Source: Anaerolineae bacterium
Lineage (GTDB): Bacteria > Chloroflexota > Anaerolineae > Anaerolineales > Anaerolineaceae
Reading direction: 5' to 3'
DNA length: 64,000 nucleotides
Assembly (NCBI GenBank): GCA_013314735.1
Contig: JABUFD010000001.1
Coordinates: 186,001-250,000, forward strand
In this document: positions 47,664 to 49,743 of the stretch, one piece after another
Layout of the letters: every line of letters starts with the position of its first letter
How positions within the stretch are numbered: the stretch's first letter is position 1
Notes under the pieces: model-generated
Seen by the model: the letters and a program-made list of their open reading frames with translations, nothing else
Databases searched by the model: none
Told to the model about the DNA's origin: nothing
Made by a program: the position numbers and the translations under genes

Positions 47664-48176
47664 TTATTCCGAGTGGTTTTCAGAATCGGGGCCTGGCAAA
47701 GAGGAAGAAGGATTCTTTTCCGGTTGTTGCGGGTCAGCAAACACCAGTTCAAAATTCTGATAACGTTCTGCGTTGAGGTCTGGATCAGCCAGGGATTGAT
47801 TGACGGCATCCCATCCATCCGTTGTCCACATCTCGATATAGGAACCATTCCCGGCCAGCACAATCTCCGAACCGGCCTGCATCCCAATCGAGCCTGACAG
47901 TTCGGCAGGAACGCGGATACGGGAGGATCCATCGAGTTTGATCAGGTGAGACTTGCTCATGAACATGCGCCGCAGATTGCGCACATTCGGGTCGGTGACG
48001 GGCAGCTTGTTGATATCCTGCAGGAGTTTACCGTAAGTGTCAGGCATCAGGATCATCAGGCAGCGGTCAAAACCCATGGTGACATACACAGCGTCAGATA
48101 CCAGCGCCCGGTACTCTGCGGGGATCATGACCCTATTTTTCTCATCCAGATGTCGTTTGTGCTCGCCGTAGAACAT
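47664..48176 (-). CDS. mraZ: Transcriptional regulator MraZ
   Basis: DNA-binding regulator that heads dcw clusters and represses its own operon through direct repeats. The 170-residue product begins MFYGEHKRHLDEKNRVMIPAEYR and contains a second SpoVT-AbrB-like half (SHLIKLDGSSRIRVPAELSGSIGM) with the expected spacing. A poorly conserved acidic, Pro/Ser-rich tail of about 35 residues follows. ATG 48176 has AGGGAAC upstream; the longer frame to 48236 runs through the leader hairpin and is rejected. Three GTGGRA boxes lie in its leader. Confidence 0.96.
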   Translation of the reverse strand: MFYGEHKRHLDEKNRVMIPAEYRALVSDAVYVTMGFDRCLMILMPDTYGKLLQDINKLPVTDPNVRNLRRMFMSKSHLIKLDGSSRIRVPAELSGSIGMQAGSEIVLAGNGSYIEMWTTDGWDAVNQSLADPDLNAERYQNFELVFADPQQPEKNPSSSLPGPDSENHSE

Positions 48177-48199
48177 TTGTTCCCTGTCTTTATTTAGCA

Positions 48200-48230
48200 G
48201 ATGAAGGTCGGATGTTGTCCGACCTTCATC
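48200..48230 (-). promoter_or_regulatory. Perfect 12-bp hairpin in the mraZ leader
   Basis: GATGAAGGTCGG and its exact complement flank a 7-base loop, directly after the last MraZ box and about 24 bases before the start codon. No U run follows, so it is not a simple terminator. It could protect the mRNA end or modulate mraZ translation. Confidence 0.65.
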
Positions 48231-48256
48231 TCCCACAAGTTCCCACTTATTACCAC
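48231..48256 (-). promoter_or_regulatory. MraZ operator: three direct repeats with 10-bp period
   Basis: On the minus strand GTGGTA (48251-48256), GTGGGA (48241-48246) and GTGGGA (48231-48236) are each separated by four bases, the known arrangement of MraZ-binding repeats. They lie 12-37 bases downstream of the -10 element, so bound MraZ would block dcw transcription. Confidence 0.85.
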
Positions 48257-48267
48257 CACCTGCCTAT

Positions 48268-48296
48268 ATATTACAGCATTTTGCAGCTTTGTGCAA
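48268..48296 (-). promoter_or_regulatory. dcw cluster promoter
   Basis: On the minus strand TTGCAC (48291-48296) and TAATAT (48268-48273) are 17 bases apart, placed just before the MraZ operator. Confidence 0.75.
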
Positions 48297-48402
48297 GTAC
48301 TTTTTAGGTAAACAACAAATTTGCAATGCCAGAGGGATTGATTTCCGCCCATATATTGGGTATTGAGCCTGAAATAGGGATGATCTCACAGATTTTTTTA
48401 TG

Positions 48403-48492
48403 GTGGGAAGGTGTGGGAGGCTCTTCGCTCTGGTGTGGGAAAATGGTGGGAGATGAATGTCGGCGAAGGCTTTTCATCGCCTGTAAGTGGGA
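48403..48492 (+). repeat. Plus-strand GTGGGA array, inverted partial copy of the mraZ operator/leader
   Basis: GTGGGA occurs at 48403, 48413, 48435, 48446 and 48487 on the plus strand. The block 48435-48463 aligns with the minus-strand mraZ operator/leader at 25 of 29 positions (both contain GTGGGAGATGAA then G/T then GTCGG). GATGAA/TTCATC in the copy can still form the leader-type hairpin. Confidence 0.7.
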
Positions 48493-48506
48493 TTTTCACC
48501 CCGGGA

Positions 48507-48549
48507 AAAGAGACAGGTCCGGGCGGCCGATCTCAGCAGCCCGGACCTG
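48507..48549 (-). terminator. Terminator of the alcohol dehydrogenase gene
   Basis: A perfect 11-bp GC-rich stem (48514-48524 with 48539-48549) followed on the minus strand by TCTCTTTT, about 34 bases after the stop codon. Confidence 0.75.
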
Positions 48550-48582
48550 GATCCAAATGGTCAGAATGCAATTAAAGCTGGA

Positions 48583-49743
48583 TCAGGCTGCCATGCGAAT
48601 GATCTCTCCTGCGGCAGCGGCATCAATGGCACTGTGTTCTCCCAGGCGGGTACCACGTGCGGCAAAGCGTTCCTCGATTCGCCGCGCGGCTACATCCGCA
48701 TCAATCCCGTAATCCTGCAGGCGGGTGGGCATGCCGATCGAATGATAGAATGCCTCAGTTTTCTGAATGGCGGCTTCGATGGCGGCATCCTCATCCTTTG
48801 TATCCAAACCCCATACCCGGCTGGCATATTGCAGCAGTTTTTCGCGCTTACGGGCGGCCTGGTGCCGCATCAGGGATGGTTCGACGATTGCCAGGGTTTC
48901 GGCGTGGTCGAGGCCGTAAAATGCGGTCAGTTCATGCCCGATCCCGTGGGTGGCCCAGTCCTGCGGTACGCCGCGCCCGATCAGGGTATTGAGGGCCATG
49001 GTGGCGCACCACATGTAACCAGCACGGGCATCGTATATGGGGGGATCCATCAGGGCCTGCGGGGCGGTTTCAATGATGGTCAATAACAAGCTCTCCGCAA
49101 AGCGGTCCTGCAGTGGGGCAGCGGAGGGATACGTGAGGTATTGTTCCATCGTATGCACATAGGAATCCACCAATCCATTGCGGACCTGCTTTTGGGGCAG
49201 GGAATAAGTGCTTTCGGGATCGAGGATGGAGAAGACCGGGTAGACATGGTCCGAAGCAAAGGAGCGTTTTTCATCGGTCTCCTTACGGGAGATGACCGAG
49301 TTGGGATTGGACTCCGACCCGGTAGCCGGCAGGGTGAGAACCGACGCCAATGGCAGCGCGGAATGGATCGGGGTTTCACCGGTGAGGATTCCCCAGGCGT
49401 CAGCGCCATCCGGCAGGCAGGCCGCGGCAGCGATGAACTTGGTGCCGTCCAGCACCGAACCACCGCCGACCGATAACAGGAAATCAATCCCCTTCTCCTT
49501 CACCAGTTTCACAGCTTTCATCAGGGTTTCATACAGCGGGTTGGCCTCGATCCCGCCGAACTCAAATACTTCAGCCTGCGAGAGGGCGGTCTTAACCTGA
49601 TCATAAACGCCGTTGCGGAAGATTGATCCGCCGCCGTAGATCAGCAGGATTTTCTTACCCTGGGGAATCAGGTCGCGAAGATGGCGGATCGAATTTTTTC
49701 CAAATACGATCCGGGTTGGGTTATGGTAAACGAAATTTTGCAT
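48583..49743 (-). CDS. Iron-containing alcohol dehydrogenase (BDH/YqhD type)
   Basis: NAD(P)H-dependent reduction of aldehydes to alcohols, typical of fermentation. The 386-residue group III dehydrogenase has ILLIYGGGSIFRNGVYDQV, FLLSVGGGSVLDGTKFIA (cofactor loop), LTLPATGSESNPNSVIS and the metal-binding region with DSYVHTMEQYL (Asp/His) and the C-terminal HGIGHELTAFYGLDHAETLAIV (His residues). The Gly-Gly-Gly-Ser loop and GSESN are those of butanol dehydrogenase/YqhD, often NADPH-linked. AAGGAG precedes the ATG. It is monocistronic with a strong terminator. Confidence 0.94.
   Translation of the reverse strand: MQNFVYHNPTRIVFGKNSIRHLRDLIPQGKKILLIYGGGSIFRNGVYDQVKTALSQAEVFEFGGIEANPLYETLMKAVKLVKEKGIDFLLSVGGGSVLDGTKFIAAAACLPDGADAWGILTGETPIHSALPLASVLTLPATGSESNPNSVISRKETDEKRSFASDHVYPVFSILDPESTYSLPQKQVRNGLVDSYVHTMEQYLTYPSAAPLQDRFAESLLLTIIETAPQALMDPPIYDARAGYMWCATMALNTLIGRGVPQDWATHGIGHELTAFYGLDHAETLAIVEPSLMRHQAARKREKLLQYASRVWGLDTKDEDAAIEAAIQKTEAFYHSIGMPTRLQDYGIDADVAARRIEERFAARGTRLGEHSAIDAAAAGEIIRMAA

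Follow-up and report, generated by a model that had tools for sequence, protein, structure and literature searches.

An inverted array of GTGGGA boxes upstream of mraZ in an Anaerolineae genome: a possible distal MraZ operator with counterparts at mraZ in other phyla

In an Anaerolineae bacterium, the gap upstream of mraZ contains, besides the primary MraZ operator on the minus strand, five GTGGGA boxes on the plus strand that face away from the dcw cluster. Our analysis of this DNA, a stretch of 64,000 nucleotides (the window) from a 4.09-Mb genome in 13 contigs, suggests that the second array likely arose by inverted duplication. Tentatively, and at slightly less than an even chance, we read the plus-strand boxes as a distal, inverted auxiliary MraZ operator. 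MraZ is widespread and heads the dcw cluster, and its operators have been described as GTG-core direct repeats just upstream of mraZ in Escherichia coli, Burkholderia cenocepacia, and Mollicutes (PMC7761207, PMC8475190), the Mollicutes boxes being direct repeats of AAAGTG[T/G] (PMC8475190). In B. cenocepacia, MraZ binds four 7-nt repeats with 3-nt spacers (a 10-bp period), which cover the start site and lie downstream of the -10 box; this MraZ is described as an octameric toroid, and with the four-repeat DNA it forms high-molecular complexes (PMC7761207). In the accessible parts of these reports the known operators comprise one array on one strand, to which the window adds an inverted distal array (PMC7761207, PMC8475190). 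The literature found, mostly open-access text, describes neither an inverted second MraZ array nor a leader hairpin such as the one reported below, and a search for MraZ together with looping yielded no paper on the subject. E. coli shows no apparent phenotype when MraZ is lost (PMC8475190). If the recurrent inverted array is real, the MraZ ring would gain a concrete job, the bridging of two sites, and a testable prediction would follow in bacteria of several phyla; if the array is only a relic, it would show operator duplication and how divergent MraZ-controlled promoters might arise. The recurrence of backward arrays before mraZ hints at an undescribed control of cell-division genes.

Two box arrays in the gap upstream of mraZ

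The features of the locus, in order of position, are as follows.

47664-48176, minus strand: mraZ (PF02381, E 3.4e-18), at the head of the dcw cluster, with its start codon ATG at 48176
48199-48231, minus strand: mraZ leader hairpin, an inverted repeat with a perfect 14-bp stem and a 5-nt loop (40.1 bits with the leader-hairpin model, R1)
48231-48256, minus strand: primary MraZ operator; GTGGTA, GTGGGA, GTGGGA at a 10-bp period
48268-48296, minus strand: mraZ promoter; TTGCAC (48296-48291), 17 nt, TAATAT (48273-48268)
48403-48418, plus strand: first pair of the inverted array, GTGGGA-N4-GTGGGA; 15 of 17 positions complementary to 48230-48246
48435-48463, plus strand: second pair, at 11-bp spacing, and the first part of the leader hairpin; match to operator and leader in 25 of 29 columns
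48452-48478, plus strand: decayed hairpin copy with a GATGAA ... TTCATC outer stem
48487-48492, plus strand: fifth GTGGGA box, isolated, from the motif search
48514-48549, minus strand: GC-rich stem-loop followed by TCTCTTTT (folding z -3.71)
48583-49743, minus strand: iron-containing alcohol dehydrogenase (Fe-ADH) gene (PF00465, E 8.9e-40), upstream of and co-directional with mraZ

Both arrays share the 406-bp gap between the Fe-ADH gene and mraZ (48177-48582), with their nearest outward-facing boxes 147 bp apart. rsmH/mraW follows mraZ, for which a longer frame up to an upstream GTG is also present. Only one MraZ gene, with two domains, was found in the genome, so that a second mraZ gene was rejected; a protein-pattern search for MraZ in genome contigs gave no relative. 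The stem-loop behind the Fe-ADH gene is probably its terminator; it does not appear in the output of a simple terminator scan.

The primary operator had been described as three GTGGRA boxes at a 10-bp period; the period and two GTGGGA boxes (48231-48236 and 48241-48246) hold, and the third box (48251-48256) reads GTGGTA, a GTGGT variant that occurs in relatives (T at position 5 in 28% of 452 training boxes). The mraZ promoter scored 7.3 with a matrix built from 137 of 151 relatives (L072, which contains N, being omitted from this matrix only), against a median of -1.4 and a 95% level of 6.7 in random 241-bp chunks, which leaves the real promoter only a narrow margin over background.

All five plus-strand GTGGGA boxes of the preliminary description were located by motif search, at 48403, 48413, 48435, 48446, and 48487. 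Their spacings are 10, 22, 11, and 41, and the pair 48403/48413, as proposed, keeps the exact 10-bp period, the only one of the four spacings to do so. Like the described operators the plus array lies at the mraZ promoter; GTG-core repeats at a 10-bp period make up the minus-strand array and are represented in the plus array by that one exact pair, and no promoter of its own was found to read through the plus-strand boxes. The GTGGGA word itself occurs in the window about as often as expected (43 against 40.85), which is what a chance clustering would have in its favour. Yet dinucleotide shuffling of the 406-bp gap, repeated 2000 times, gave 0.18 plus-strand boxes on average, 3 at most, and five in 0 of 2000, and the homology described next was equalled in 0 and 1 of 2000 shuffles; we therefore discard chance clustering, which we regard as very improbable. 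Genome-wide, the exact double box GTGGGAN4GTGGGA occurs three times, and two of these are the two arrays upstream of mraZ; the third (L003) sits within an open frame. With one mismatch allowed, 9 forward and 9 reverse matches were no more than those of a reversed control (11 and 14), so that only the exact double box is informative.

Homology between the arrays extends beyond the boxes. The 25 of 29 match of 48435-48463 to the mraZ operator and leader, including part of the leader hairpin, was reproduced, with one gap, and its alignment score was equalled in 0 of 2000 dinucleotide shuffles, in 0 of about 4000 random 186-mers of the window, and in 1 of 2000 shuffles that kept the boxes in place. 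When GTGGGA was masked in both sequences, the residual match of 11 of 12 was weak alone (105 of 2000 shuffles). Another stretch, 48403-48419, agrees with the same two operator boxes at 15 of 17 positions. The alignment together with the box-fixed shuffles makes an inverted duplication of the operator-plus-hairpin segment the likely origin of the plus array, and further local duplication was perhaps also involved. The hairpin has decayed in the copy: 48433-48480 folds at -9.0 kcal/mol with a z of -0.48, no better than shuffles, and the hairpin model R1 gave no match above 3.7 bits in 48250-48600.

On the plus strand the preliminary description had seen no protein gene after the array, and this held: the plus strand offers two ORFs (48326-48712 and 48487-49086), both overlapping the Fe-ADH gene of the opposite strand and both without a Pfam match at E<=1, so that a recognisable gene behind the array was rejected. 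The divergent small RNA that it had also envisaged found no support, as the best mraZ-type promoter on plus 48260-48500 scored -4.6, under the background median, in a scan that separates the true promoter only narrowly. A simple scan of 48100-48700 for sigma-70 or terminator-like sites, which also overlooks the mraZ promoter, found none, and Rfam gave no match at E<=1 over 47900-48800. Another non-coding, RNA-level element between promoter and mraZ is UpsM in the dcw 5' leader of Rhodobacter sphaeroides; as described in the accessible text, UpsM is a terminated transcript of the mraZ strand, 206 nt of a 268-nt leader, (PMC5089854), whereas the window's array points away from mraZ, and no promoter was detected for it.

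Distribution of inverted arrays at mraZ

A comparison of related mraZ upstream regions, as the preliminary description had suggested, was run on 154 Anaerolineales regions including the window, drawn from at least 188 matching genomes plus one further set. Two mis-anchored regions (L079, L081) were removed later, leaving 152 in the hairpin and period counts; in the distal-array count the N of L072 was read as A, and regions below 200 bases were omitted here and in the sets introduced below (152 to 151, 50 to 48, 26 to 25, and 30 to 29). The inverted distal array was kept in 0 of the 150 other Anaerolineales regions, the congener included, and is thus private to the window's genome within the order. 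In agreement with this, the window scored 20.1 with a box matrix for an opposite-strand pair (next best of 154 regions, 11.3), and with GTGG[GA]N5GTGG[GA] 130-500 bp upstream it was the single positive among 151, with one same-strand distal array. Over the last 500 bp, period 10 occurred in 1 Anaerolineales region and periods 7 and 11 in 2 each. Read by eye, the congener (the one other available genome of the genus) retains an ADH-like frame, the mraZ promoter, the boxes, and the hairpin, and has a gap of about 239 bp, as against 406 bp, without the plus-strand array; similarity between the two gaps is confined to 48202-48304. Among 29 unselected regions of other Anaerolineae orders there were one inverted and one same-strand distal array.

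Comparable arrays are found elsewhere. A scan of 84,980 genomes (from which the records of the window's own genome may have been excluded) with the pattern TCCCACN4TCCCAC-N140..170-GTGGGAN4GTGGGA returned five loci with a divergent double array, three of them at mraZ in unrelated bacteria. By MraZ protein profile, mraZ stands beside the array in a Saprospiraceae MAG (L184), a "Deltaproteobacteria" MAG (L185), and L188, and in each of these genomes the exact double box occurs twice, both times at mraZ (reversed control, 0-1). The profile found no MraZ in the examined stretches of L186 (Roseiflexaceae) and L187 (Bacillota), of which L187 appears repeat-rich. L186:1023-1208 carries GTGGGATA-type repeats and several TTATCCAC-like sites, and its flanking frames are, we presume, SbcD-like and CobQ-like.

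Using the three mraZ-associated genomes as seeds (G372 for L184, G373 for L185, and G374 for L188), we examined relatives, namely 50 of 57 matching for G372, 26 of 26 for G373, and 30 of 39 for G374. In the last 500 bp upstream of mraZ, inverted 10-bp arrays were present in 9 of 50 (G372), 9 of 26 (G373), and 4 of 30 (G374); other periods occurred in 0-2 sequences per set, period 11 excepted (1, 2, and 5), and the reversed-motif control at period 10 gave 0. Restricted to 130-500 bp upstream and with the seeds removed, inverted arrays remained in 8 of 47 regions of the Bacteroidota set (G372), 4 of 24 of the G373 set, and 3 of 29 of the G374 set, 15 of 100 in total, against 2 of 100 for same-strand distal arrays and shuffle means of 0.03-0.05 per set for inverted ones. 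This orientation bias has a binomial p of 0.002, to be read with the relatives not being independent and the clades having been selected on a seed with the pattern. In the G374 set the three non-seed positives lack a recognised primary array, two of them using GTGGA boxes, which gives a stricter count of 12 of 71 in two clades. Opposite-strand 10-bp arrays 130-500 bp upstream of mraZ are accordingly above chance in the three sets and not in Anaerolineales, a recurrence that lends indirect support to the plus array as a second MraZ-bound site.

The neighbours of these arrays differ. Divergent ORFs start near the array in eight cases, in four of which the array lies inside the excluded 130 bp, and the recurrence thus has more than one cause. 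In four relatives of the G373 genome (L306, L308, L309, L310) the inverted MraZ array marks the beginning of a divergent ORF of 161-168 aa that contains Cys pairs; the one scanned, that of L310, has no Pfam match. L285 and L291 have a divergent ORF with a hydrophobic N terminus behind the array, and two Bacteroidota (L331, L332; G372 relatives) a divergent ArsC-type ORF (PF03960 in L331), with array flanks conserved between both genomes and a promoter-like motif accompanying the array. In L241, also of the Bacteroidota, a PfkB-family gene lies 201 bp beyond the array. The nearest upstream gene is co-directional in six of nine Bacteroidota positives, as in the window; these genes are PEPCK, glycosyl transferase, PGK, and SMI1/KNR4 by Pfam, with two read by eye, and antisense ORFs over such genes in L233 and L243 were taken as spurious. 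In the Bacteroidota set the -7 promoter motif is found behind 41 of 54 primary and 2 of 11 inverted arrays, as against 104 of 450 background stretches. The window's array goes with the gene-less, promoterless form seen in the Bacteroidota.

An auxiliary operator and competing explanations

How might a second array act? Auxiliary operators of the lac/gal type loop with a primary operator, and there too a second copy of the binding site lies about one to a few hundred base pairs from the first. Unlike those systems, the window would combine direct-repeat arrays in inverted orientation with a ring-shaped repressor, and looping would be a conjecture from this layout. An MraZ ring oligomer may bind both arrays, about 150-260 bp apart, and the bound MraZ could bridge them in a loop or raise MraZ locally, either of which would tighten autorepression of the dcw promoter. 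Solved MraZ structures contain many chains (36 in 9qlr), which, with the toroid complexes, is compatible with bridging and is not evidence of it. More broadly, control of the dcw cluster might have a recurrent two-operator form, in which unrelated phyla have repeatedly acquired an inverted distal array beside the primary one and the MraZ ring bridges the two, the second array in some lineages tying a divergent gene to MraZ; we hold this wider proposal to be on the unlikely side.

We favour the auxiliary operator over a relic. The locus holds two of the three exact double boxes of the genome, the boxes are intact while the hairpin and the promoter are not, and divergent double arrays stand at mraZ in three of the five scan loci, with 15 of 100 inverted against 2 of 100 same-strand arrays among relatives. 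Against it stand the 0 of 150 other Anaerolineales regions, the single 10-bp spacing out of four, the fact that period 10 is no commoner in Anaerolineales than periods 7 and 11, and the choice of the enriched clades by seeds. Its chief competitor is a nonfunctional relic, an inverted operator/leader copy that is decaying and that MraZ may still touch without consequence; template switching at the perfect leader hairpin may have produced it. Homology beyond the boxes, the loss of hairpin and promoter, the broken spacing, and the lack of the array in the shorter gap of the congener and in 149 other Anaerolineales regions are all in keeping with a relic, which we rate as quite possible; however, the plus array numbers five exact boxes, against two and a GTGGTA in the present operator, chance gives 0.18 per 406 bp, and comparable inverted arrays recur elsewhere. 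A relic of inverted duplication had been among the initial suggestions: the shuffles uphold that origin, and none of the 150 other Anaerolineales regions has the array, one of the two observations that the preliminary description had named as pointing to a relic without function. Taken as a whole, the initial interpretation is partly supported.

The remaining explanations appear improbable. A divergent MraZ-controlled transcription unit pointing away from mraZ, whether a small RNA or a lost gene, has parallels in the clades with ORFs behind their arrays (the ArsC-type, Cys-pair, and hydrophobic ORFs above), but in the window it is opposed by the plus-strand searches, which found no mraZ-type promoter, no sigma-70 or terminator-like site, no Rfam match, and no Pfam match for the ORFs; we consider it improbable. 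Less probable still is a roadblock, in which MraZ on the inverted array would halt Fe-ADH read-through into the dcw cluster. The array does sit between the stem-loop behind the Fe-ADH gene and the mraZ promoter, and the upstream gene is co-directional in the window and in six of nine Bacteroidota positives, a count of array-positive regions only, but a roadblock should not need inverted orientation, and same-strand distal arrays are the rarer ones (2 vs. 15 of 100).

The mraZ leader and start context

The leader between operator and mraZ folds with a z of -5.08 (48177-48262), and the hairpin may be an undescribed cis-regulatory RNA of the dcw cluster. The end of the best stem-loop between operator and ATG falls 21-29 nt ahead of the start codon in 146 of 152 Anaerolineales regions, a description and not a test, since the stem script always returns a best stem. 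In an alignment of 54 leaders, the 12-pair stem is paired in 86.7% of cells, as against 82.5% when shuffled and 40-49% when slid, and 10 of the 12 pairs changed on both sides. Cells changed on both sides number 33 (15.4 shuffled), but slid versions reach 27-31, and covariation is therefore supported mainly by the covariation score, 0.271 vs. 0.10-0.16 slid. The leader hairpin model matches 28 of 31 genomes, always directly before mraZ and 14 of the 28 outside the training rows, with an additional partial match in one genome; a class-wide R1 search matched 8 of 150 genomes, 7 in the window's own order. The mraW RNA motif (RF01746) is likewise a cis-acting RNA element next to a dcw gene, in the accessible text mraW of C. 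glutamicum (PMC3890552). Rfam gave no match for the leader hairpin in six sequences, the window stretch and five relatives, and no family match at these loci that could be the mraW motif; a known RNA family was rejected on these null results.

Some smaller features of the leaders may be recorded. In the 54 aligned Anaerolineales leaders (alignment A1) the consensus stem-loop, behind the last MraZ box, is about GAACGCCGG-loop-CCGGCGTTC. GAAC lies within 9 nt of the mraZ ATG in 118 of 152 Anaerolineales regions, often as TAGAACNNATG, and TAGAACNNATG with codon 2 TTC forms a near-palindrome around the start codon. In four regions from other Anaerolineae orders (L189, L191, L199, L206), an MraZ box and an inverted box shortly downstream can pair in place of the hairpin, and a further GTGGGAGAT-like box stands immediately before the ATG.
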